Shown: positions 60,020 through 63,967 of the stretch, piece after piece
How positions within the stretch are numbered: position 1 is the first letter of the stretch
How the letters are laid out: each line of letters begins with the position of its first letter
Assembly (NCBI RefSeq): GCF_000316665.1
Contig: NC_019678.1
Location: 3,038,001-3,102,000 of the forward strand
Source of the DNA: Rivularia sp. PCC 7116
GTDB lineage: Bacteria > Cyanobacteriota > Cyanobacteriia > Cyanobacteriales > Nostocaceae
DNA: 64,000 nt
Direction: 5' to 3'
Notes under the pieces: model-generated
What the model saw: the letters and a program-made list of their open reading frames with translations, nothing else
Database searches by the model: none
What the model was told of the DNA's origin: nothing
Program-made: the position numbers and the translations under genes

Positions 60020-63000
60020 ATGGCAATTTTACACGGTAGTTGGTTACTACAAGGTCAAAGCAGTTGTCTTTTTGTATGGGGAGAAACTTGGCGTTCTATA
60101 AGTAGCGATTCGGCTGAAGATGAATTAGTAAAAGTACAACCCCATCCTTTCGGTATGACACCGTTAGAATTATTGGAATTATTGCAAAAACGCAATCTTA
60201 AAATTCCGCAAGAGTGGGAAAAACTAGTAGCTGAGAATTCCACAACTAAATCTGGAAAAAAAGCCAAAGCTACTAAAGAAGATATAAATTTACCTTCTTC
60301 ATCCTTCGCTATCGCTTTACCTACACATATTCCTCAAGAAAATAAAAAGAAGAAAAAGAAAAAGGATATTGACTCGATACATCCCCTACATTCAGGAGTT
60401 GTTAACGAAGGCGCAAGCGAGCAATATTTATATTCTTGGCAAGTTGAAGGTTTTTGCTTGAACTCTACAGAAGCAGTAAAATTTTTAACTTCCTTACCGA
60501 TGAGCGTGACTAATGATGAACAAGCTTTTATTGGCGGAGATTTACGTTTTTGGTCGCAAATTGCCCGTTGGGGTTTAGATTTAGTTGCAAGATGCAAGTT
60601 TCTGCCTGGAATTGATAATTTACCGGATAATTCTAAAATTGCTAGTTGGCAAGCGCTTTTAGATAGTGCAGTTGACGGCAGTCGTTTGGATAAGTATTCG
60701 CGATTAATGCCTTTATCTTGTCGTCTTTATCAAGGACAAATTCAAGGTGATATTCAAGATTATTACCAATCAATTAATTTACCTCCTGAATCCGAGCAAC
60801 TACTACTAGATTTTTTAAATAAAACTGTGGATGCTCAAGTGCGAGAAATGGTAAATTCTCTCGATCCAGGAGAAACTCGATTGCTGGCATCTTTACCATC
60901 TGTAGTCAGACAGTGGTTGCATTCTTTAACAAGCAAGAAAAATTCACTTGCTGCAAATAATCAGGAAGTTGAAAGGCTAGAAGGCGCTCTAAATTCTTGG
61001 ACTTTACCTTTACAAAATCAACTTGGAGCCAGAAGTCTTTTTCGTACTTGTTTTGTATTGCGTACTCCAGAAGTCGGGGATACACAATGGTTGTTGGAAT
61101 ATTATCTGCAAGCAATTGATGATGAAGAGTTTTTAGTAGATGCACAAACAATTTGGAATCATCCGTTTGAACAATTTATTTATCAAAATCGCACGATTGA
61201 CAAACCGCAAGAAACTTTTTTAAGGGGTTTGGGTTTAGCTTCGCGGCTTTATCCGATTATTGCACCAAGCTTGGATACGGCTTTACCTCAATCTTGTCGT
61301 CTTGAACCGATGCAGGCTTATGATTTTATCAAGTCGGTAACTTGGAGATTTGAAGATAGCGGTTTAGGTGTAGTTTTACCCGATTCTTTAGCAAATCGCG
61401 ATGGTTGGGCTAATCGTTTGGGCTTAAAAGTCAGCGCTCAAACTCCTAAGAAAAAAGCCGAGCGTTTGGGTTTACAAAGTTTACTTAATTTCAAATGGGA
61501 ATTAGCAATTGGAGGACAAACTCTTTCCAAGCAGCAGTTTGACAAACTTGTGGCTTTAAATAGTCCCTTAGTACAAATCAATGATGAATGGGTAGAATTA
61601 CGTCCCCAAGATATCAAGACAGCACAAACATTTTTTGCGGGTAGAAAAGAAAAAATGTCTTTATCCCTAGAAGATGCTTTGCGATTGGGTTCTGGTGATA
61701 CTCAGACAATTGAAAAATTACCAGTAGTCAGCTTTGAAGCTTCTGGTGCTTTGCAGGAGTTAATTACAAATCTTACGGATAATCAAGATTTAGAATTAAT
61801 ACCCACTCCCGAAAGTTTTCATGGAGAATTGCGCTCCTATCAAAAGCGAGGAATGTCTTGGCTGGCATTTTTAGAGCGTTGGGGTTTGGGCGCTTGTTTG
61901 GCTGATGACATGGGTTTAGGGAAATGCGTTGCACCCGATACCGAAATTTACATCAACGGTTGTTTGAATACTGCTAAAAATATTTGGCAAAGCTATGCAG
62001 GGGAAACACAATTTGACGGTGAAGGATTTTGGGCTGAATCCACCGAGCAGTTGATAGTTAATTCCTTAAATGAGTCAACTGGTGAAATTATCCAAGCTCC
62101 AATTCGACGACTTTACCGACAAAAGGTTGAAGAAAAGTTAAGAAAAATCAATTTACAAAATGGTAGCAGCATTACCATTACTCGTCGTCATAAGTTACTG
62201 ACGAATAAAGGTTGGACAAATCACCTGAAAATTGGCGATTCTGTTGGTATACCTACTAATAAACCCTCAGCGAACCTCCGCGAAAACCTCCGCGAACCTT
62301 TGCCTTTAAAAAATACAACTCCTCTTCCTCAAACAGCCAATATTGCTTTAAAAGAAAAACCAAAAACTAGTAAAGAAATCTTCTACTGCAAAATCGAAAG
62401 CATTGAAGATATAGATTATCAGGGATGGGTTTACGATTTTGAAGTTGAACAACACCATAATTTCGTTGCTAACAATATTATTTGTCACAACACAGTTCAA
62501 TTCATAGCCTTTTTACTTCACTTAAAAGAAGAAGAAGCCTTAGAAAAACCAACTTTATTGGTTTGTCCAACTTCCGTATTAGGAAACTGGGAACGAGAAG
62601 TTAAAAAATTTGGTCCTAAACTTAAAGTTTTACAGTATCACGGTGATAAACGTCCCAAAGGCAAGGCTTTCCAAACTGCTGTTAAAGATAAAAATATCGT
62701 AATCACAAGTTACTCGTTAGTTCATCGCGATTTAAGTTTGTTGCAGGACGTTTCTTGGCAGATTATCGCTTTAGATGAAGCCCAAAATATTAAAAATGCT
62801 TCATCCAAACAATCGCAAGCAGTACGACAGTTAGAACCAGATTTTCGGATTGCTTTGACTGGTACCCCGGTAGAAAATAGACTGCAAGAATTGTGGTCGA
62901 TTATGGACTTCTTAAATCCCGGATATTTAGGAAACAAACAGTTTTTTCAACGACGGTTTGCAATGCCGATTGAAAAATACGGCGATACCTCTTCATTATC

Positions 63001-63835
63001 GCAATTGCGTTCCTTAGTCCAACCGTTTATTTTGCGACGCTTGAAAACAGATAGAGATATTATTCAAGACTTACCAGAAAAACAGGAAATGACTGTTTTT
63101 TGCGGTTTAACCCCCGAACAAGCCAAGCTTTATCAACAAGTAGTAGAAGATTCCCTATCCGAAATTGATGATGCAGAAGGATTGCAGCGTCGGGGAATGA
63201 TTTTAAGTTTACTTGTGAAATTAAAACAAATTTGCAATCACCCAGCACAGTATTTAAAGAAAAAGAAATTAGAGCAATACGATTCAGCCAAACTTCAGCG
63301 TTTGGACGAAATGTTAGAAGAAGCAATATCAAATGGCGATCGCGCTTTAATTTTCACTCAGTTTGCGGAGTGGGGTAAGTTGCTAAAACCCCATTTAGAA
63401 GATAAGTTGAGCCGAGAGACTTTGTTTTTATACGGTAGTACAACCAAAAAGCAACGTGAGGAAATGATAGACCGTTTTCAACACGATCCACAAGCCCCAC
63501 CTGTAATGATTCTTTCTTTGAAAGCTGGCGGTGTCGGATTAAATTTAACTCGTGCAAATCATGTATTTCACTTTGATAGGTGGTGGAATCCCGCAGTCGA
63601 AAATCAAGCTACTGATAGGGTATTTCGTATCGGTCAAACAAAAAACGTTCAGGTGCATAAATTTGTTTGTACCGGAACTTTAGAAGAAAAAATTCACGAC
63701 ATGATTGAAAGCAAAAAGCAATTAGCAGAACAAGTTGTAGGTGCGGGAGAAGAATGGTTAACCGAAATGGACACGGACCAATTACGTAACTTATTAATAC
63801 TTGATAGAGATGCAATTATTGAAGAAGAAGGTTAA
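60020..63835 (+). CDS. SNF2-family DEAD/DEAH helicase containing a mini-intein
   Basis: A 1271-codon gene. The N-terminal half (1-~570) is the bacterial SNF2 accessory region, including a lysine-rich patch near 110-118 and a DUF3670-like part (about 420-570). Helicase lobe 1 begins at LRSYQKRGMSWLAFL; its Walker A motif DMGLGK^T is split between Lys635 and Thr825 by a 189-residue intein. Lobe 1 continues with PTSVLGNW, LDEAQNIKN (Walker B, near 917) and LTGTPVENR. Lobe 2 shows LIFTQF, SLKAGGVGLNL and the ATDRVFRIGQT motif. After splicing the helicase would be about 1082 residues and complete. Role: ATP-driven nucleic-acid translocase, function not specified by neighbours. The stop codon lies in an AAAGGTT/AAAGGTC repeat array. 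Confidence 0.93.
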   Translation: MAILHGSWLLQGQSSCLFVWGETWRSISSDSAEDELVKVQPHPFGMTPLELLELLQKRNLKIPQEWEKLVAENSTTKSGKKAKATKEDINLPSSSFAIALPTHIPQENKKKKKKKDIDSIHPLHSGVVNEGASEQYLYSWQVEGFCLNSTEAVKFLTSLPMSVTNDEQAFIGGDLRFWSQIARWGLDLVARCKFLPGIDNLPDNSKIASWQALLDSAVDGSRLDKYSRLMPLSCRLYQGQIQGDIQDYYQSINLPPESEQLLLDFLNKTVDAQVREMVNSLDPGETRLLASLPSVVRQWLHSLTSKKNSLAANNQEVERLEGALNSWTLPLQNQLGARSLFRTCFVLRTPEVGDTQWLLEYYLQAIDDEEFLVDAQTIWNHPFEQFIYQNRTIDKPQETFLRGLGLASRLYPIIAPSLDTALPQSCRLEPMQAYDFIKSVTWRFEDSGLGVVLPDSLANRDGWANRLGLKVSAQTPKKKAERLGLQSLLNFKWELAIGGQTLSKQQFDKLVALNSPLVQINDEWVELRPQDIKTAQTFFAGRKEKMSLSLEDALRLGSGDTQTIEKLPVVSFEASGALQELITNLTDNQDLELIPTPESFHGELRSYQKRGMSWLAFLERWGLGACLADDMGLGKCVAPDTEIYINGCLNTAKNIWQSYAGETQFDGEGFWAESTEQLIVNSLNESTGEIIQAPIRRLYRQKVEEKLRKINLQNGSSITITRRHKLLTNKGWTNHLKIGDSVGIPTNKPSANLRENLREPLPLKNTTPLPQTANIALKEKPKTSKEIFYCKIESIEDIDYQGWVYDFEVEQHHNFVANNIICHNTVQFIAFLLHLKEEEALEKPTLLVCPTSVLGNWEREVKKFGPKLKVLQYHGDKRPKGKAFQTAVKDKNIVITSYSLVHRDLSLLQDVSWQIIALDEAQNIKNASSKQSQAVRQLEPDFRIALTGTPVENRLQELWSIMDFLNPGYLGNKQFFQRRFAMPIEKYGDTSSLSQLRSLVQPFILRRLKTDRDIIQDLPEKQEMTVFCGLTPEQAKLYQQVVEDSLSEIDDAEGLQRRGMILSLLVKLKQICNHPAQYLKKKKLEQYDSAKLQRLDEMLEEAISNGDRALIFTQFAEWGKLLKPHLEDKLSRETLFLYGSTTKKQREEMIDRFQHDPQAPPVMILSLKAGGVGLNLTRANHVFHFDRWWNPAVENQATDRVFRIGQTKNVQVHKFVCTGTLEEKIHDMIESKKQLAEQVVGAGEEWLTEMDTDQLRNLLILDRDAIIEEEG
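61925..62491 (+). mobile_element. Mini-intein in the SNF2 helicase Walker A motif
   Basis: 189 residues (Cys636-Asn824 of the precursor). Block A is CVAPDTEIY with the splicing Cys1. Block B has TRRH in SITITRRHKLL (Thr-x-x-His). Block F/G is VYDFEVEQHHNFVANN ending IICHN, with penultimate His and terminal Asn, followed by Thr as +1 nucleophile. No LAGLIDADG or HNH endonuclease is present between B and F; instead there is a short low-complexity linker (about 62260-62370). All residues needed for protein splicing are intact, and its removal restores GLGKT. Confidence 0.93.
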
Positions 63836-63862
63836 AGGTTAAAGGTCAAAGGTCAAAGGTAG
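63829..63862. repeat. AAAGGTT/AAAGGTC heptamer array over the SNF2 stop codon
   Basis: About four 7-bp units; the TAA at 63833-63835 is within the first unit. Confidence 0.8.
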
Positions 63863-63907: not shown

Positions 63908-63956
63908 ATGCCCTATGCCCAATTACCAATTACCAATTACCAATTACCAATTACCA
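63908..63956. repeat. ATTACCA heptamer array
   Basis: About five ATTACCA units preceded by ATGCCCA/ATGCCCT variants; same unit type as at 28374-28426. Confidence 0.85.
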
Positions 63957-63967
63957 AAATTAAAACC

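Follow-up and report, generated by a model that had tools for sequence, protein, structure and literature searches.

The ATP-binding site of helicases is a place previously known to attract inteins, and several described elements resemble the one presented here. Closest is the case of NCBIfam family NF058636, whose name, 'sll1366 family intein-prone helicase', indicates that the insertion site itself is already known; the host family is identical and the model ends at the insertion point. The accessible part of that record names the host and contains neither the Rivularia mini-intein nor the repeat in its linker. The inteins of Pyrococcus horikoshii RadA and M. smegmatis DnaB (DnaBi1) likewise interrupt P-loops; their hosts are different, however, and DnaBi1 is of class 3, whereas the Rivularia intein retains Cys1 (PMC6195587, in the part available). 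Deinococcus radiodurans also has an intein in a Snf2-type protein (Brace et al. 2010), of class 3 according to the title of that paper and comparable by type of host, not by insertion site. A gyrB intein is listed for Rivularia sp. PCC 7116 in the available part of PMC4071816. As for the linker, Rickettsia palindromic elements and other intragenic MITEs are, similarly, dispersed repeats lying in frame within genes, but in the accessible text of PMC10969869 their peptide stays fused to the gene product, while the Rivularia linker peptide should leave with the intein.

The window analysed here is the whole stretch of 64,000 nucleotides taken from Rivularia sp. PCC 7116, whose genome (G000) comprises 8.73 Mb in 3 contigs. 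The features of the locus, in window coordinates, are the following.

60020..63835, + strand: SNF2-type helicase precursor of the sll1366 family (1271 aa; SNF2-rel_dom, DUF3670 and Helicase_C)
61910..61924, + strand: MGLGK, the N-terminal half of Walker A and the end of the N-extein (47 of 60 relatives run directly into T/S)
61925..62491, + strand: mini-intein, 189 aa (Pfam and NCBIfam intein models)
61925..61927, + strand: Cys1, first nucleophile (TGC; invariant in 38/38 aligned inteins)
62180..62191, + strand: block B TxxH, T86-R-R-H89 (T86 and H89 invariant in 38/38)
62266..62311, + strand: copy of a dispersed repeat of 10-bp period, lying in frame where the endonuclease used to be (28.1 bits with nhmmer, E=9.6e-8)
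62273..62296, + strand: tandem 12-bp duplication within the repeat, two copies of AACCTCCGCGAA (common to G005)
62426..62470, + strand: block F, WVYDFEVEQHHNFVA (W168, V169, Y170, D171, E173, H178, N179, F180 and A182 invariant in 38/38)
62471..62491, + strand: block G, NNIICHN, with Cys187, penultimate His188 and terminal Asn189 (all three invariant in 38/38)
62492..62494, + strand: Thr+1 (ACA), C-extein nucleophile and Walker A Thr

The sequence-only reading of this DNA placed a complete 189-residue mini-intein across Walker A of a SNF2-type helicase, in a setting known to be prone to inteins, and in these respects it holds well. The boundaries are exact to the base: Walker A reads GLGK/C...HN/T, with TGC for the first Cys, CAC AAC as the last codons of the insert (62486-62491) and ACA for the Thr. 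The host has the SNF2-rel_dom match and scores 848.3 bits against NF058636 (cut-off 550), over residues 1-635, precisely where the intein starts, and the name of this NCBIfam family covers the known setting. By subtraction, the spliced helicase would have 1082 aa. Pfam Intein_splicing covers insert residues 45-189 (E=1e-22), NCBIfam intein_Nterm begins at residue 1 and intein_Cterm finishes at residue 189; among solved structures, the RadA intein of P. horikoshii is nearest in sequence (6.1e-13). The claimed lack of a homing endonuclease is likewise borne out, as neither Pfam nor NCBIfam has a hit to such a family at an E-value of 1 or below. Class 3 inteins are those without a nucleophile at position 1, and that class is ruled out by Cys1; together with the block B TxxH, the HN/T end and the precise insertion relative to empty homologues, Cys1 marks the element as of class-1 type, and the absence of an endonuclease domain makes it a mini-intein. 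A HINT fold is probable from the sequence models; the AlphaFold models had mean pLDDT values of 31.9 and 33.9. With a rough probability of 0.92, we therefore read the insert as a class-1-type mini-intein in Walker A of an sll1366-family SNF2 helicase, with a genomic repeat in its linker. Chance is excluded as the source of the insert; the intein itself is ordinary, its linker less so.

The distribution of the element was established in 60 related genomes, all with a match to the helicase and each read at the insertion site. An intein is present in 13 of them and the other 47 are empty, running straight through GK(T/S), so that the insert is an intein and not a conserved helicase domain. Six relatives have versions of 466-474 aa (G008, G012, G013, G036, G047 and G049), and seven have short ones (G000, 189 aa; G003, 185; G004, 190; G005, 181; G006, 184; G030, 213; G019, 221). 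LAGLIDADG_3 was found in all three long inteins scanned (G013, G047 and G036), whereas a scan of three short ones (G030, G019 and G004) did not find it; judged by sequence, the mini-intein and the full-length homing-endonuclease inteins at this site are relatives. Within the genus of the window five of eight genomes carry it, and it is thus not fixed at that level (G001, G002 and G007 are empty), contrary to what had been supposed from the loss of the endonuclease. The accompanying idea of vertical inheritance fits better: as far as the trees resolve, the host tree unites the five carriers in a single clade with moderate support (ultrafast bootstrap 88), and their inteins group together in the intein trees (support 96 with 13 sequences, 99 with 38 inteins). 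The intein is, on these trees, passed down in one Rivularia subclade without being fixed. Five carriers set against three non-carriers in one genus are a natural set for the cost or benefit of a P-loop intein. A profile search of 388 genomes from the order gave 48 matches at E<=1e-20. Among 30 loci from it, 5 belonged to genomes already read, 21 were further distinct Walker A inteins by their junction pattern and 4 had no intein by that pattern (uncaught, or identical to another). Six further loci from the same search were fetched for short versions; the additional short inteins are those of G241 (265 aa), G293 (241), G075 (305) and G289 (234), together with the nearly linker-free inteins of G087 and G219.

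Among the five Rivularia carriers, dN/dS (NG86) is 0.10-0.28 for the N-terminal splicing part (to residue 104) and 0.03-0.14 for the C-terminal one (9 of 10 pairs defined; a rough value, because dS exceeds 1 in five of the nine), and 0.03-0.10 for the exteins (the last 500 residues of the N-extein, and the C-extein). The splicing blocks are evidently under purifying selection; low dN/dS signals constraint and is no measure of splicing efficiency. Since the catalytic residues are also invariant in all 38 aligned inteins, the mini-intein very probably does splice. A whole-helicase search of the Rivularia genome gave a single match, so no close intein-free copy is seen that could cover for failed splicing. 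From what is known of other inteins, an N-S shift at Cys1 would lead to transesterification to Thr+1, after which cyclisation of Asn189, aided by His188, and an acyl shift would rejoin GLGK with T and restore the ATPase. By the same analogy, the unspliced precursor should be inactive and unable to hydrolyse ATP; the available part of PMC6195587 reports such inactivity for the RadA P-loop intein and assumes it for DnaB.

Splicing could in principle be conditional on redox state, metal, DNA binding or temperature, making the intein a post-translational switch for the helicase. There are precedents: a disulphide inhibits splicing of the M. smegmatis DnaB P-loop intein (PMC6195587, available part) and intein-extein contacts block that of P. 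horikoshii RadA (PMC5790916, likewise in part). Moreover, Cys187 (62483-62485) adjoins His188-Asn189 and is invariant in the 38 aligned inteins and in two more, making a Cys1-Cys187 disulphide conceivable; this Cys is not tied to domestication, since the endonuclease-bearing relatives have it too. Three close relatives nevertheless manage without any intein, and the constraint is what would be expected of any intein obliged to splice out of a useful protein. We consider such a switch unlikely.

One point escaped the sequence-only reading: the linker is itself a copy of a repeat dispersed through the genome. The Rivularia linkers resemble CCTCAGCGAACCTCCGCG...CCTTTGCGTTTAAAAAA. The 12-mer AACCTCYGCGAA was discarded as the repeat unit: it has 4 copies in its own genome, two of them inside the intein, and 2-5 copies in the other eight genomes versus 0-8 for the reversed control. 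It was replaced by the 10-bp-period pattern CCTCNGCGNNCCTYNGCG, which has 27 occurrences in G000, counting that in the intein, against 0 for the reversed pattern, and is present in 12 of 21 genomes searched, among them G001, G002 and G004-G007, though not in G003 (a draft genome, 84% complete). A rough, post hoc expectation for a random copy landing in the linker is about 0.0004 (27 copies, 120 nt, 8.73 Mb). The frame is open over the whole 321 bp in just 2 of 22 G000 repeat loci and 0 of 18 G019 loci, and most copies therefore look non-coding. As far as we can judge from these comparisons, the endonuclease slot of the Rivularia mini-intein holds a dispersed 10-bp-period repeat, and this finding is new here.

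It could be objected that the likeness is a coincidence, or the outcome of convergent codon choice, and that no dispersed repeat was captured. The linker element is indeed short, at 46-50 bp, and low in complexity, the search pattern was chosen after the linker had been seen, and this pattern is absent from 9 of the 21 genomes searched. However, a profile of 48 columns, built from 40 copies that all lie outside the intein (22 G000 loci and 18 G019 loci), gives 36.4 bits on the intein of G005, 31.6 on G004, 28.7 on G006 and 28.1 on G000, as against a best score of 13.1 bits in 2.22 Mb of dinucleotide shuffles, and the match takes in the GCGTTTAAAAA-like end of the repeat. On the window itself, the second-best hit scores 5.5 bits, compared with 28.1 at 62266-62311. 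Four of the five Rivularia inteins thus stand above the shuffle background. The fifth, that of G003, falls short of significance with the profile (10.7 bits); BLAST matches 29 bp of its linker (E=1.6e-5) and 20 bp lying outside the linker (E=0.002). Thirty-two other inteins and six reversed queries, run against a set of 59 repeat loci, produced no hit. A second mini-intein, that of G019, carries a different repeat family. In the light of these results we give coincidence or convergence very little credence, and continue with the captured repeat.

The G019 linker holds CCGCGAAGACGCGAAGTACGCAAAG, which has 64 occurrences in that genome at no more than 1 mismatch (intein included) and 0 reversed, and 0 in G000 and G030. 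Among the 59 repeat loci, it matches genomic copy L200 over 105 bp with 87% identity (E=5e-32). The inverted arms of L200, which start ATAGGACTTACGC, are 37 nt long and 76% complementary; no such arms are reported for the copy in the intein, whose ends accordingly seem worn. G019 has the terminal-repeat pattern at 10 places, around cores that vary (0 reversed), and the frame is open over 361 bp in the intein copy alone among 20 fetched G019 loci. The chance expectation for this linker is about 0.002 (64 copies, 231 nt, 7.9 Mb), again rough and post hoc. The idea that the G019 linker is the Rivularia repeat reversed was ruled out, there being no profile hit, and the element belongs to a different, MITE-like family. 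A looser form of the Rivularia pattern does have 21 copies in G019 (control 1) and 0 in G030. Loci L191-L210 represent MITE-like families whose cores vary and whose ends are GGACTTACGC...GCGTAAGTCC; these also occur at 46 places in G028 and 19 in G018.

The endonuclease slot therefore has the look of a place where repeats can land and be tolerated, since the residues that they encode should be removed together with the intein and leave the mature helicase unaltered. Because two lineages have two different repeat families there, repeat insertion may be a recurrent route to a mini-intein. We propose, tentatively and at rather less than even odds, that the slot is a safe harbour, in which a dispensable endonuclease was interrupted or replaced by repeats or MITEs that have been kept within a conserved gene as their peptide is spliced away, and that homing inteins have possibly become mini-inteins repeatedly in this manner. 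In the literature on intein repeats and endonuclease loss, as covered by titles and the starts of abstracts, mostly outside the subscription journals, we found nothing on repeats in intein linkers.

Loss of the endonuclease seems to have occurred more than once. In the tree of 38 inteins (G087 and G219 left out), the short intein of G241 pairs with a full-length one (support 100), G075 with the full-length G047 (100) and G019 with the full-length G012 (76), while the five Rivularia inteins make up one group (99); the deep nodes are weak (14-66). This suggests at least four shortening events, that of G019 with moderate support. Seven short versions are known beyond Rivularia and G019, five with endonuclease remnants and two nearly linker-free; C-terminal pieces of the endonuclease region are recognisable in G030, G241, G289 and G293, and a degraded core in G075. 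The intein nearest to the Rivularia set is that of G030 (support 84 with 13 sequences, 59 with 38 inteins), and these inteins may share one endonuclease loss. The host tree of 13 also unites G030 with Rivularia (72), whereas the 59-host tree, with low deep supports, pairs it with the empty G029 (72), apart from Rivularia. We have not retained intein transfer between hosts as a demonstrated event, the G030-Rivularia support being weak and the host trees in conflict. Because of this weak placement and these differing trees, the intein may have entered the Rivularia clade either through transfer or through descent accompanied by many losses. In all, a single insertion site keeps a graded series of states, from empty through full-length endonuclease, partial deletions and nearly linker-free forms to minis with a repeat as linker. 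From this series the closing stages of the intein homing cycle can be read, and it points to inteins as possible shelters for repeats within conserved genes.

That the intein has ceased to splice, leaving the helicase a pseudogene or two working pieces, is a most improbable reading: splicing is deduced here from sequence, and the G003 helicase gene has one internal stop (1 TAG, in a draft genome), but every catalytic residue is retained, and the intein and both exteins are under purifying selection. The view that the insert is a conserved helicase domain and no intein, for which we found no supporting point, can be dismissed, given the 47 of 60 relatives empty at exactly GK/T, the intein models at both ends of the insert and the LAGLIDADG matches in three long versions.

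Outside the window, loci L002-L008 of the same genome hold further intein hits, with hosts named from reading their sequences: an RtcB-like protein (mini-sized), ribonucleotide reductase (whose insert is of endonuclease size), DnaB, GyrB and, as the N half of a split intein, DnaE. The DnaB intein (L004/L005; G000:C1, about 5415672-5416901, minus strand) splits a P-loop too, as GK/C...HN/T, so that one genome has two P-loop inteins. Finally, two heptamer arrays lie near the end of the helicase gene, AAGGTCA (x4.7) at 63828-63860, at the gene end, and CCAATTA (x5.6) at 63919-63957, just past it.
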